From: an uncultured Eudoraea sp.
Lineage (GTDB): Bacteria > Bacteroidota > Bacteroidia > Flavobacteriales > Flavobacteriaceae
Assembly (NCBI GenBank): GCA_947258555.1
Contig: CAMYJF010000035.1
Span: 1-57,727, forward strand
Direction: 5' to 3'
Length of the DNA: 57,727 bases
In this document: positions 15,370 to 20,594 of the stretch, piece by piece
Layout: every line of letters begins with the position of its first letter
Position numbering within the stretch: the first letter of the stretch is position 1
Translations under genes and position numbers: made by a program
The notes under the pieces: model-generated
Database searches by the model: none
What the model was told of the DNA's origin: nothing
The model's input: the letters and a program-made list of their open reading frames with translations, nothing else

Positions 15370-16212
15370 ATGAAAAAACTATTTTTATTAGCAGGTGCTT
15401 TTGTCCTTTCAATTTCGCTGCAAGGACAGATGCAGACACCGGCTCCAAGTCCATTTTCTAAGATCGAACAGAAAGTCGGACTCACTGATGTGACAGTGGA
15501 ATATTCACGACCTTCCATGAAGGGGAGAACCATATTTGGTGATCTGGTACCCTATGACAATCTTTGGAGAACCGGAGCCAATGCAAGAACGAAGATCACT
15601 TTTAGCGATGACATCAAATTTGGTGGTACGGATGTAAAGGCAGGATCCTATGGCTTATTGACAATTCCTGGTATGAGCAGTTGGGATGTGATCCTATATA
15701 CAGAAGCCAATGGGGGAGGAACCCCTGGTGAATGGGATGATGCCAAAGTTGCAGCCAAAGTTTCAGCACAAGTAAATGCCCTCCCATGGGATGTAGAAAC
15801 TTTCACGATCGTTATTGGGGAATTAACAAACACGGGTGCAAGCCTTGGTTTCTTTTGGGAAAAATCCTCAGTGATGGTTCCTTTCGAAGTGCCAACAGAT
15901 GCACTTGCTACCCAAAGTATCGAATCGGTTATGGCAGGTCCGAGTGGAAACGAATATTTCAGCGCGGCCTCTTATTATCTTGAGTCAGGAAAGGATCTTG
16001 AAAAGGCCAAAGGATGGATAGATAAAGCTGTTGAAATGAATGAGAATGCATTTTGGATGATGCGCGTTCAATCGCTCATTTATGCCAAAATGGGTGATAC
16101 CAAAGGCGCTATTGCAGCAGCCAAGCGTTCCCTGGAAGTGGCCAAGAAAGCAGGTAATGACGATTACGTACGTATGAACTCAGCCAGTTTAAAAGAATGG
16201 GGAGCTATGTAA
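15370..16212 (+). CDS. Exported DUF2911 protein with C-terminal TPR-like helices
   Basis: A 280-residue protein with a clear signal peptide (MKKLFLLAGAFVLSISLQGQ). The DUF2911 core is recognised by VTVEYSRPSMKGRTIFG, then VPYDNLWRTGANARTKI and GSYGLLTIPG. DUF2911 proteins are common in Bacteroidota and have no known activity. The last about 80 residues are helical, with KAKGWIDKAVEMNENAFWM and GDTKGAIAAAKRSLEVAKKA resembling two tetratricopeptide repeats, so a protein-binding role is possible. It is a single-gene unit with its own promoter and a strong terminator just after the stop. Confidence 0.85.
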   Translation: MKKLFLLAGAFVLSISLQGQMQTPAPSPFSKIEQKVGLTDVTVEYSRPSMKGRTIFGDLVPYDNLWRTGANARTKITFSDDIKFGGTDVKAGSYGLLTIPGMSSWDVILYTEANGGGTPGEWDDAKVAAKVSAQVNALPWDVETFTIVIGELTNTGASLGFFWEKSSVMVPFEVPTDALATQSIESVMAGPSGNEYFSAASYYLESGKDLEKAKGWIDKAVEMNENAFWMMRVQSLIYAKMGDTKGAIAAAKRSLEVAKKAGNDDYVRMNSASLKEWGAM

Positions 16213-16233: not shown

Positions 16234-16260
16234 GAACCCGGGATTTTCCCGGGTTTTTTT
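16234..16260 (+). terminator. Rho-independent terminator after DUF2911
   Basis: A perfect GC-rich stem AACCCGGGA / TCCCGGGTT with a short T-rich loop is followed by a run of seven T. The convergent symporter gene ends immediately beyond it. Confidence 0.9.
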
Positions 16261-17965
16261 ATGTCTGTATGGGAGGGTTTCTAAGGAGTCTGTCGAATCC
16301 TTCGAGGATCAATGCCAGTACTATAACAAGTCCGCATCCAAAGGCATTGAGCCAGAGATAAGACATCCAGTCGAATTTAAATCCAACAATCACAATTACC
16401 TGGGTAATTATGGCTGCGGTAAACACAGCATTCCCCCGGATCCATCTAAAAAAGAAGGCCAAGAGGAAAATTCCCAGTACGTTTCCGTAGAATATCGAAC
16501 CGATAATATTGACCAATTGGATCAGGTTATCAAAAAGATCAGCAACACAAGCTATACATATCGCTATAACACCCCAAAGCAGGGTAAACCCTTTAGACGC
16601 TTTTACATAATGTGCTTCATTCTCCTCAGTTTTCCTGTTGCGCTTATAGAGATCCAACGCTGTTATTGTCCCCAGGGCATTAAGTTCACTGGCCGTACTT
16701 GACATGGCCGCAGACAGGATCACTGCCAAAAGCAATCCGATCAAGCCTCGCGGAAGAAAATTCAAAATGAAATGAATAAACACGTAGTCCTTGTCATTTG
16801 TCTGTACAAGGGAATCTGATTTGGCTATAACACTCTTAGCGGCCTCTCTGTTAGCTCGCTCTTCCTGGTTGATCAGTACCATTTGCTCGCCCAATTCTTT
16901 TTCACGGGCATGATCTTTCTCATCAATCGCCAGGGAATATAAGCCTTGAACAGCTTGCTTATCTATTTCTAATTTTTCATGTGCATCTACAAGCACCTGG
17001 TAATCCTGTGAATAATCGCTGTTCATCACGGCTTCAGTGGCCGCCGGATTAAAATTTAAAGGGGAAGCATTGAATTGATAAAAAACAAAGACCATGACAC
17101 CTACCAGCAAAATAAAGAACTGCATGGGAACCTTTAAAAGGGCGTTGAATATCAATCCAAGCTGACTTTCACGAACAGACTTCCCCGAAAGGTAGCGTTG
17201 CACCTGGCTCTGGTCCGTCCCAAAATAGGCTAGTGCCAAAAACATTCCCCCTGTTATGCCACTCCAAAACGTATATCGACTTGAAGTGTTTAAATCGAAA
17301 TCCAGAATATTCAGCTTTTCATTGGCCCCTGCGATCTTTAAAACTTTTGTAAAGGTGATATCGCCTGGCAAGAAACCGAGAATGAAGAAAAATGCCATGA
17401 ACATCCCCAACATAATGACAAACATTTGTTGTTTCTGAGTAACACTAACTGCTCGGGTACCCCCTGAGACAGTATAAATTATTACCAGGATCCCAATAAT
17501 GATGTTCAGCGTGTTTAAGTTCCAACCTAAAACGGCCGATAAGATAATGGCAGGTGCAAAAATGGTTATTCCTGCAGCCAGACCTCGTTGAATTAAAAAC
17601 AAAATCGCCGCCAAGGTGCGGGTTTTTAGGTCGAATCGGGATTCCAGGAATTCATAGGCCGTATAGACCTTTAATTTGTGATAGAGGGGAACAAAGACCA
17701 TACATATGATGATCATGGCCAGTGGCAGTCCGAAATAGAATTGAACAAATCCCATTCCATCGTGAAACGCCTGACCGGGTGTTGAAAGAAAAGTGATCGC
17801 ACTAGCCTGGGTCGCCATGACAGATAGGCCTATCGTCCACCATTTGGCGCGGTGGCCTCCCATTACATATTCTTCGACATTGGCGCTGCCACGGGTCTTC
17901 CAAACCCCGTAAAACACTATTGATAAGAGTGTTCCTGCCAATATCAGCCAATCGAGTCCGCTCAT
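16259..17965 (-). CDS. Sodium:solute symporter (SSS family)
   Basis: A 568-residue membrane transporter of the LeuT-fold SSS family. At least 12 hydrophobic segments are seen. Family-like parts are VMGGHRAKWWTIGLSVMATQ near the N-terminus, TIYTVSGG-like IYTVSGGTRAVSVTQ and YFGTDQSQVQRYLSGKS. An unusual hydrophilic insert of about 90 residues (roughly 305-395, with VLVDAHEKLEIDKQAVQGLY) breaks the membrane part and is probably a helical, non-membrane extension. The substrate is not known. The gene starts directly at the end of a 40-residue membrane protein and follows a PIG-L deacetylase, so uptake of a sugar or deacetylation product is a reasonable guess. Confidence 0.9.
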   Translation of the reverse strand: MSGLDWLILAGTLLSIVFYGVWKTRGSANVEEYVMGGHRAKWWTIGLSVMATQASAITFLSTPGQAFHDGMGFVQFYFGLPLAMIIICMVFVPLYHKLKVYTAYEFLESRFDLKTRTLAAILFLIQRGLAAGITIFAPAIILSAVLGWNLNTLNIIIGILVIIYTVSGGTRAVSVTQKQQMFVIMLGMFMAFFFILGFLPGDITFTKVLKIAGANEKLNILDFDLNTSSRYTFWSGITGGMFLALAYFGTDQSQVQRYLSGKSVRESQLGLIFNALLKVPMQFFILLVGVMVFVFYQFNASPLNFNPAATEAVMNSDYSQDYQVLVDAHEKLEIDKQAVQGLYSLAIDEKDHAREKELGEQMVLINQEERANREAAKSVIAKSDSLVQTNDKDYVFIHFILNFLPRGLIGLLLAVILSAAMSSTASELNALGTITALDLYKRNRKTEENEAHYVKASKGFTLLWGVIAICIACVADLFDNLIQLVNIIGSIFYGNVLGIFLLAFFFRWIRGNAVFTAAIITQVIVIVGFKFDWMSYLWLNAFGCGLVIVLALILEGFDRLLRNPPIQT

Positions 17966-18088
17966 CTAGCCGTATGTGATCATGAGATAAAAGAAAATAA
18001 CGATATACAGGGCGTTGAGGATAAGTACGACCGAGTACTCCTTCTTCCAGGAAAAGGTTTCAAATATGGATCTATCCTTTGGTATCAT
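17966..18088 (-). CDS. Small single-pass membrane protein, possible symporter partner
   Basis: A 40-residue protein from ATG at 18088 to TAG at 17966. The N-terminal half is charged (MIPKDRSIFETFSWKKEYS) and the rest is one hydrophobic helix (VVLILNALYIVIFFYLMITY). It overlaps the 3' end of the PIG-L gene by 17 bp, and its stop codon is directly followed by the ATG of the symporter with no spacer. That position suggests coupled translation and a role as a small subunit or regulator of the transporter, like the small partners known for some other SSS carriers. This function is inferred from position only. Confidence 0.6.
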   Translation of the reverse strand: MIPKDRSIFETFSWKKEYSVVLILNALYIVIFFYLMITYG

Positions 18089-20594
18089 GTGTCTCTTCAG
18101 GATCTGCTTTGCCAATGGAAAGCATATTGGCAAATAATTTATATGCTCCGGAAACTCCTGCAGGTAATTCCCGGAAAAAGCTTAGTCCGGTGTAAATATA
18201 GTAGCCTTTGCCAAAAGGAGCTACTAATAAACTCCCTTTCATTGCATCATATCCTTCATCCTGCATAGAAAGTACCGCTGTAAAGGCAGGATCCCATTCA
18301 TTGGGAAAATACAAGCCCCTTTCCTGCACCCAGCCCTCAAAATCGGCCAGGGATATAGAATTTGGATGTGTGATCAGTGGATGCTTTGGGGCAATAATAT
18401 CAACTTGGGAATTTTCATCGGTAACCCTGTCCCTCGATAACTTGAGTGGAAAGGGGGCGATCTCTTTGTAGGCAGAATCCCAGCGCCCAGCCGTATTGTA
18501 TTGAACGATCATCGTACCTCCATTCTTCACATAGTCCATCAAAGCAGGTTGCTTCAACTTCAATACATCATTTACATTATATGCCCTAATGCCTAAAACT
18601 ATGGCGTCGTAATTATCAAGGGAGCCCATTTGAATGGATTCCGGTTTGATCTCATCCACACGACAACCCATCTGCACCAGGCTTTCTGCAACGCCATCTC
18701 CGGCACCCTCTATGTATCCTATGGCTTCACTGTAGTTATCTATGTTTAGCCGTACAAATTTAGACTCCGCCGGCAATAAGACGGACTGCGTAGGTATATG
18801 GTCATAGGCAATAGTCACCAATTCACTATTATAATTCTGACCTTCCAGGTTAACAATGGCCTTAGCCCAGAGCTCATCCTGGTTCAATGGCGGGGTCACA
18901 TCGAAAGTTAGCGTGACTTCTTCCCCCTTCTGAGAAAGACTGAATTCCTGCTGATTATTTGCCACCTTCCAATTATCGGAAATGGCCAAAGAAACAGACC
19001 CGCTGATCGTATCTTTCTCTGCCCGGATCTTCACCGGAATACTCCGTGTAGCCCCATTAGAAAAAATAACAACTTTATCTTCAAAGGAGCTTGTCACCGC
19101 AGGTAATACTTCAAAAGGTCTGTATAATTCTCCCTGATCTGGTTCAGAATAGCGATAAACCAGCGGGCGCTCCAGGCTGATCATTGTTCCATTAAAATCG
19201 AGATCAAATTGGGCGATATAGCCTTCCGCTGCCTCAGGTTTACCGATCAGGTCTGTATCTTCTACAGAATACATACCAAGAGAGCCTTTTTTATTAAGCC
19301 AATAGGGACTGGTATATGAAGCATTGTCAGGCACTGAAACTTGAAATTCAATATTTTCTTTTTTGTTGTTCTGGAGGGCCAACTCTGCAGAGTCGATGTC
19401 ACTGCCATTGATTTTTATTGCCTTCAGGGTCAGGGGCAAGTCACTCCGATTTAGAGCTTCTACTTTAACGGACACTTCGCTTCCAGGTACAGTCACCGGC
19501 GAAGTCGTTGCCGCTTCCAGGTAGAGTCCGCTAACAGATCCAATGAGACTTTTTAGTTCTTCACTTTTAATTGTTTTCCAATGATCATCTGATACAGTTT
19601 GCAATAAACTATACGCCTTAAGCAGCTCATTCAAGTGCACAGAAGGGTTGGTAAAATTGAAATTCTCTTCTACTGCGTATAAGATCTCGCCGATCTTGTC
19701 GCCGCCTTCGATTCTTGACCAGCTCGTATCTATACCTTCAAATATGTTTTGTTCTCCTTGAGGAAGATCTCCTTTGATGATCTCCAGATATTCCGTTTCG
19801 GACCCCCGGGTTGTCAATCGGCCAAACCCTTGACATTTATGCTGACTGCTCGCCATAGATGCCAGTTCGTTGTTAGAGAGTCCCAGGATTGGGTAGAAGA
19901 CACCCGTATCTACCGAGATCAAATTCGATTTATCAGCTTTTTCAAAATTCTCCCTGCTTCCGTAGAACCACCAGGATGTATTAAAAAATAAACGCCTTGG
20001 TTGCCAAGTTTCCAAGCTTTCCAATTGTGAGGGATAGGACTTCTCTGATCCCACAAGGTCAAAAGCCTCTGTACTTAACATAGCTGATGAGGTATGTTGT
20101 CCATGGGTACTTCCCGGAGTGCGATGGTTGAAGCGATTTACGATAACATCAGGTTTGAACTGCCTTATGACTCGGACTACATCACCTAATACTTCCTCTT
20201 TGTTCCATATTCTGAGGGTTTCATCCGGATGTTTTGAATAGCCAAAGTCTACTGCCCTGGTGAAAAATTGTTGTCCGCCGTCAATGGAGCGCGCACCCAG
20301 CAATTCCTGGGTTCTCAGAAGTTCTTTTAATTCAGGGCCTATTAGATTTTGGCCCCCATCACCACGCGTAATAGAAAGGTATCCGGTACGGGCTTTAACG
20401 CCATTTGAGAGATAAGAAATTAAGCGTGTATTCTCATCATCGGGATGTGCAGCTATATAAAGTGCAGATCCAAGAAAATTGAGCTTCTGAATTGAATGAT
20501 AGATATCCGATGACGATGGCTTAACAGGCGCCTGCCCATGAATCTTGAGGAAGAAGAGACAGAAAAAAAGTAGCAGGGTGGGTTGGAATCGCAT
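18072..20594 (-). CDS. Large exported PIG-L family deacetylase
   Basis: An 840-residue protein with a signal peptide (ending near KIHGQ). The N-terminal PIG-L/LmbE zinc deacetylase domain spans about residues 40-300. The metal motif is AAHPDDENTRLI, followed by GYLSITRGDGGQNLIGPE, and a later NHRTPGSTHGQHTSSAML supplies the third ligand region. The middle (about 360-630) looks like beta-sandwich domains. The C-terminal about 190 residues have a ThuA/GATase-like alpha-beta pattern (YDAIVLGIRAYNV, then YVKNGGTMIVQYNTAG). Related enzymes remove N-acetyl groups from sugars. It precedes a small membrane protein and an Na+ symporter. Confidence 0.87.
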   Translation of the reverse strand: MRFQPTLLLFFCLFFLKIHGQAPVKPSSSDIYHSIQKLNFLGSALYIAAHPDDENTRLISYLSNGVKARTGYLSITRGDGGQNLIGPELKELLRTQELLGARSIDGGQQFFTRAVDFGYSKHPDETLRIWNKEEVLGDVVRVIRQFKPDVIVNRFNHRTPGSTHGQHTSSAMLSTEAFDLVGSEKSYPSQLESLETWQPRRLFFNTSWWFYGSRENFEKADKSNLISVDTGVFYPILGLSNNELASMASSQHKCQGFGRLTTRGSETEYLEIIKGDLPQGEQNIFEGIDTSWSRIEGGDKIGEILYAVEENFNFTNPSVHLNELLKAYSLLQTVSDDHWKTIKSEELKSLIGSVSGLYLEAATTSPVTVPGSEVSVKVEALNRSDLPLTLKAIKINGSDIDSAELALQNNKKENIEFQVSVPDNASYTSPYWLNKKGSLGMYSVEDTDLIGKPEAAEGYIAQFDLDFNGTMISLERPLVYRYSEPDQGELYRPFEVLPAVTSSFEDKVVIFSNGATRSIPVKIRAEKDTISGSVSLAISDNWKVANNQQEFSLSQKGEEVTLTFDVTPPLNQDELWAKAIVNLEGQNYNSELVTIAYDHIPTQSVLLPAESKFVRLNIDNYSEAIGYIEGAGDGVAESLVQMGCRVDEIKPESIQMGSLDNYDAIVLGIRAYNVNDVLKLKQPALMDYVKNGGTMIVQYNTAGRWDSAYKEIAPFPLKLSRDRVTDENSQVDIIAPKHPLITHPNSISLADFEGWVQERGLYFPNEWDPAFTAVLSMQDEGYDAMKGSLLVAPFGKGYYIYTGLSFFRELPAGVSGAYKLFANMLSIGKADPEETHDTKG

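Follow-up and report, generated by a model that had tools for sequence, protein, structure and literature searches.

A small membrane protein gene coupled to a sodium/solute symporter gene in Flavobacteriaceae and other Bacteroidota

A 40-residue protein with one predicted transmembrane helix is encoded immediately upstream of the gene for a Na+/solute symporter (SSS, SLC5 fold) in a 57,727-nucleotide stretch of DNA, here called the window, from an uncultured Eudoraea sp. (GenBank assembly GCA_947258555.1, contig CAMYJF010000035.1, positions 1 to 57,727). The small open reading frame (ORF) is a genuine gene under purifying selection, and it is closely coupled in genomes to this symporter subfamily. 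Its product is probably an accessory subunit of the adjacent symporter, to which it would bind. One-helix accessory proteins of transporters are a kind already known (MAP17, AcrZ); this protein family and its coupling to the symporter subfamily appear to be undescribed in the sources that we searched.

The gene runs from position 18088 to position 17966 on the minus strand, with an ATG start and a TAG stop, and its translation is MIPKDRSIFETFSWKKEYSVVLILNALYIVIFFYLMITYG. A sequence-only reading of the window had proposed a 40-residue ORF at this place, left its strand unstated, and described it as overlapping the end of a deacetylase gene by 17 bp and abutting the start of a symporter gene. 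The ORF coordinates bear this out: the stop of the upstream PIG-L gene ends at 18072, giving an overlap at 18072–18088 on the minus strand, and the symporter ATG starts at 17965, the next base after the small gene's stop. A TTG start would lengthen the product to 55 amino acids; the start of the 40-residue form is the only ATG in the frame upstream of the helix. The same reading had given the product one charged end and one transmembrane helix, and hydropathy agrees. All seven charges (four positive, three negative) lie in residues 1–18 and none in residues 19–40, and the best 19-residue Kyte-Doolittle window, residues 20–38, has a mean of 2.54, as for a single helix. The predicted transmembrane helix, codons 19–38, corresponds to positions 17975–18034 (minus strand); a low-confidence structure model places a helix at residues 15–38. 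The small gene has a single significant copy in the window's own genome, where there are seven SSS matches.

That the frame is a gene is evident from its persistence and from how it changes. In an initial search of 60 genomes, the window's own included, the symporter was matched at E ≤ 0.001 in 55, and a small ORF lay upstream of it in all of the 30 best loci (window included), with symporters down to 59% identity. It was likewise present in every one of 80 named loci, which are the best 80 of 581 confirmed symporter relatives (identity 69–94%), lying 0–8 bases upstream of the symporter in 78 and 72 bases upstream in two. The two sets partly overlap; L152 and L002, for example, have identical small genes on contigs of equal length. 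Between the window and a congener (L002) there are 12 differences, all of them silent and in third codon positions (p = 1.9e-6 from position alone). Pooled over 56 independent pairs differing by 2–30%, dN/dS is 0.14 (95% bootstrap interval 0.115–0.170), which indicates purifying selection on the reading frame. The frame was found in 205 of the 236 genera in a sample of 299 Flavobacteriaceae genomes (the family sample), and no internal stop occurs in any of the matches listed from this sample or from a sample of 395 Bacteroidota genomes (the phylum sample).

Conservation within the protein is concentrated in a few columns. The 215 loci used (those scoring below 2.5 bits, and L144 and L147, were left out) give 192 distinct peptides with Neff 119. 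Information content in these is highest at columns occupied by W (99%), Y (99%), V (91%), N (66%), Y (68%), F (97%), M/T (98%), and F/Y (80%), spaced 4, 3, 4, 3, 4, 4, and 3 residues apart and represented in the window protein by W14, Y18, V21, N25, Y28, F32, M36, and Y39. Across the final 24 columns, conservation shows its strongest periodicity at 100 degrees per residue (p = 0.0008 by permutation). This pattern places the conserved residues on one face of one helix, as expected of a helix packed lengthwise on a partner.

To follow the gene independently of its neighbours, a profile built from the first 30 small proteins (A1) was run on whole genomes. It matched 259 of the 299 family-sample genomes at E ≤ 0.01 and 83 of the 395 phylum-sample genomes at E ≤ 0.001. 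The symporter was found at E ≤ 1e-100 in 143 of the latter; all 83 A1-positive genomes are among them, and none of the 252 other genomes has the small gene (Fisher p = 1.5e-46, a guide only, as the test treats related genomes as independent). Of these 83 genomes, 79 have the small gene as the symporter's immediate upstream neighbour: 39 of 39 within the family, judged by coordinates, and 40 of 44 outside it, judged by reading the DNA. For 58 of the 60 symporter genomes that A1 missed, the 600 bases upstream were read with a wider profile, and in 44 a small ORF outscored all 597 opposite-strand control frames, the highest of which reached 7.3 bits. Two genomes, G040 and G053 (L141 and L142), carry the small gene by position and by a motif recognized by eye; A1 gives them just 2.7 and 7.0 bits. 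A recognizable small gene is thus present in 129 of the 143 symporter genomes, and in 138 if position alone is counted, nine loci (L268, L270, L276, L277, L279, L280, L283, L286, and L295) having in its place a hydrophobic one-helix ORF that scores at noise level. Six of these (L277, L279, L280, L283, L286, and L295), from a single family (f52), encode a one-helix product that lacks the W/Y motif and may be either a strongly diverged form or a replacement.

The association has exceptions. No small ORF was found upstream in five of the 58 symporter loci read (L252, L269, L271, L274, and L285). Within the first 60 genomes, 39 of the 40 with a symporter at E ≤ 1e-130 have the upstream small gene (30 + 6, and 3 more judged by coordinates), and in the remaining one, G055 (L143/L237), none was found upstream. 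Twenty of the 40 A1-negative family genomes were named, and 16 of these are without a symporter at E ≤ 1e-60; two others, L232 and L234, carry the symporter with no small ORF visible upstream, L233 has a diverged small ORF recognized by eye, and in L235 the symporter match lies at a contig end. Since some lineages keep the symporter without the small gene, the small gene is nearly, not absolutely, tied to it and is not required everywhere. No fusion of the two proteins was seen among the matches listed, whose open frames reach at most 105 amino acids save for one of 170 in G406. This second G406 match was rejected as a chance one, its region being unrelated. A collection of plasmids yielded no symporter relative at E ≤ 1e-40. 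In G603, two equal-scoring copies of the small gene and symporter lie near both ends of one contig (G603:C1:21466 and 3845721), through either duplication or assembly overlap, and one of the symporter matches there has an internal stop.

One genus includes four genomes that have the small gene and the symporter gene on the same strand, separated by about 15 kb. Where the pair is separated (L236, at G417:C5:105900-125400, and L099, L118, L131, and L132), a WbqC gene precedes the small gene; the pair is together in four further genomes of the genus (L105, L109, L110, and L124). The intervening DNA was read in L236 and has its genes on the opposite strand. Pfam identifies ROK, MFS transporter, PIG-L, and glucosamine-6-phosphate isomerase family proteins among the products, and we read further genes there as encoding an SLC13-type symporter and SusC/D-like proteins.

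The partner gene itself, at 16259–17965 on the minus strand, encodes 568 amino acids and scores above the cut-offs of two curated SSS profiles, TIGR00813 (248.4 bits, cut-off 184) and PF00474 (146.8 bits, cut-off 22.8); against the large-subunit profile of the VC_2705 type it reaches 43 bits, far under the cut-off of 321. Its closest solved sequences are SMCT1, SMVT, NIS, 5nv9 (SiaT), vSGLT, and SGLT. The predicted model has the LeuT-type SSS fold, aligning with NIS, SMCT1, SiaT, vSGLT, and SGLT at VIA Z of about 28–41 over 427–475 residues, and Foldseek matches it to SiaT at E = 7e-19. The VIA-align rows cover model residues 40–606, outside the small helix. Alignment to SGLT1/2 ends at about residue 548–552, before the presumed TM13 region, so that TM13 of SGLT, the docking helix of MAP17, appears to be missing from this symporter. 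From the extent of this alignment and the helix list of the joined-chain model described below, the symporter is predicted to have 13 helices. Between two of its membrane segments there is a long helical insertion, rich in charged residues and some 80 residues in length (approximately 305–385), as seen by eye and in the model's helix list.

AlphaFold models were made of a read-through chain consisting of the small protein, its stop read as glycine, and the symporter, one with the window's sequences (49 rows, a link of 1 residue) and one with those of L135 (48 rows, a link of 15 residues). The joined alignment A2 comprised the window and 48 of 55 in-frame chains, leaving out L001 (a duplicate of the window), L075 (partial), L025, L125, L191, L224, and L226. 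In both models the small part is helical, with a block-mean pLDDT of only about 40–62, and we therefore place no trust in any docking site on the symporter.

The gene's other close neighbour, at 18072–20594 on the minus strand, encodes an 840-residue PIG-L family deacetylase (PF02585, 45.2 bits, cut-off 28.2) with a signal-peptide-like N terminus by eye. The small protein might serve this deacetylase, or another neighbour, rather than the symporter, a reading that could draw on the 17-bp overlap in the window and on a PIG-L match in 72 of the 80 named loci. We regard it as very improbable. Reading about 3.5 kb of DNA on each side revealed nothing that matches the window's PIG-L protein in 19 of 44 loci from outside the family and in eight of the 80 named loci, the latter all from Tenacibaculum, although the small gene and the SSS gene are both there; this retention without a nearby PIG-L match makes PIG-L an unlikely partner, and so does the absence of the small gene from all 252 phylum-sample genomes without the symporter. 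The distance matrix of the small protein correlates with that of the symporter at r = 0.79 (partial r = 0.41, given PIG-L) and with that of PIG-L at r = 0.75 (partial r = 0.18), a weak sign pointing the same way. Mean-field direct-coupling analysis (DCA) of 165 loci (Neff ~101) gave no clear separation, with about four symporter pairs versus one PIG-L pair at z > 5 and 11 versus eight at z > 4, out of 6,670 each. One striking pair in a DCA of 198 pairings of small protein and symporter (Neff 78), symporter A120 with L22 of the small protein (z = 8.5), is absent from the top pairs in the 165-locus subset; the column filter may have removed it there, and 120 of the 165 loci share the A/L combination. 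Overall, the suggestion of the sequence-only reading that the protein is a small partner of the SSS carrier is supported by its conservation and by its tracking the symporter and not the deacetylase, and we infer that the partner is a subunit.

Two other explanations accept the symporter association and read it differently. The ORF could be a leader whose translation delivers ribosomes to the symporter start, the peptide itself being inert, and the spacing of the genes would suit such coupling: the small gene's stop lies 0–3 bases from the symporter start in 152 of 215 loci, and the two overlap by four bases in 20 more. An inert peptide would hardly explain the strong selection on its amino acid sequence or the one-faced pattern of its helix, and the frame stays intact in the four genomes in which the symporter is some 15 kb away, a weak point in itself, as silent changes are not clearly in excess among the four copies (8 of 10 between two of them, 3 of 6 between another two); we give this explanation little probability. 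Somewhat less improbable, and still unlikely in our judgement, is a factor for insertion, assembly, or turnover that helps the symporter to fold or shields it from proteolysis and is not a stable subunit. The same association data favour such a factor, and the occasional loss of the small gene with the symporter kept fits a role that is helpful and dispensable; a conserved face along the whole helix, on the other hand, is at least equally compatible with lasting packing.

If the small protein is an accessory subunit, as we favour, the small gene and the symporter gene would probably be on one transcript, given that stop and start abut in the window and overlap by four bases elsewhere. The product would be a single-pass inner-membrane protein with its N terminus inside and its C terminus outside, and its conserved face, from W14 to Y39, would pack along the outside of the symporter's helix bundle. 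The packed helix might then stabilize the symporter or help in its assembly, a role like that attributed to MAP17 with human SGLT2.

The sequence-only reading had called the possible subunit undescribed, and this holds for Pfam-A (with 25 of 48 families listed in one search), for NCBIfam, and for the titles listed by our literature searches, none of which describes such a small protein. At E ≤ 1, neither Pfam-A nor NCBIfam yields a family for the window protein. Searches with 30 family members and with 69 diverse members gave scattered weak matches, the best at E = 0.0027, and named no subunit of an SSS symporter (25 of 48 families listed in one of them); PHROGs likewise gave scattered weak matches only, and profile A1 found no PDB chain at E ≤ 10. 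A widely conserved gene would thus lack an entry in Pfam-A or NCBIfam.

Several small partners of bacterial symporters are known: DUF4212/TIGR03647 with SSS proteins of the VC_2705 type, DUF485/YjcH with ActP, DUF997/YhdT with PanF, and MetS with MetP, the "symporter small accessory protein" being another kind. All are short membrane proteins encoded beside a Na+ symporter. None of these families is among those listed for the 30 and 69 members (25 of 48 in one listing), which sets the present protein apart from them. Like MAP17 (PDZK1IP1), which partners human SGLT2 and SGLT1, the present protein has one predicted transmembrane helix and goes with a transporter of the SSS/SLC5 fold. Unlike MAP17, the bacterial protein is encoded beside its own transporter, and that transporter apparently lacks the helix on which MAP17 docks. 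Nor was a match in sequence to MAP17 detected, either in the PDB search or as a MAP17 family in the Pfam listing for the 69 members (25 of 48 families), short helices limiting the sensitivity of such searches. The part of a report on SGLT2 available to us (PMC10803289) has MAP17 contacting TM13 and discusses its support of activity, surface expression, or thermal stability; in that part, structures argue against a direct effect of MAP17 on SGLT2 activity, and thermal stability drops without it. AcrZ is described, in the portion of the source available (PMC7267776), as a small transmembrane protein that binds AcrB and changes its activity; the pairing of small membrane protein and transporter is alike, whereas AcrB belongs to another superfamily.

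A broader reading, which we put forward tentatively and hold to be possible though doubtful, is that this SLC5-fold symporter subfamily is, across the phylum as sampled, a two-subunit transporter in which a 13-helix SSS protein is joined by a co-encoded single helix that supplies in trans what occupies the SGLT TM13/MAP17 position, the arrangement having arisen independently. If so, it would be the equivalent in bacteria, and one amenable to genetics, of the SGLT2-MAP17 heterodimer. The need of SGLT2 for MAP17 is only partly understood, and the bacterial pair, together with the lineages that naturally lack the helper, would allow a simple genetic test. Should the protein be a subunit, members of the symporter subfamily that are expressed or purified alone may be incomplete.

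As for the cargo, our guess is an amino sugar or a related sugar, because of the PIG-L neighbour and, in the one genome read, the glucosamine-6-phosphate isomerase family and ROK genes. On the other side of the symporter, a DUF2911 gene (15370–16212) is convergent to it and lies 46 bp from its end; a DUF2911 match is present in 60 of the 80 named loci.
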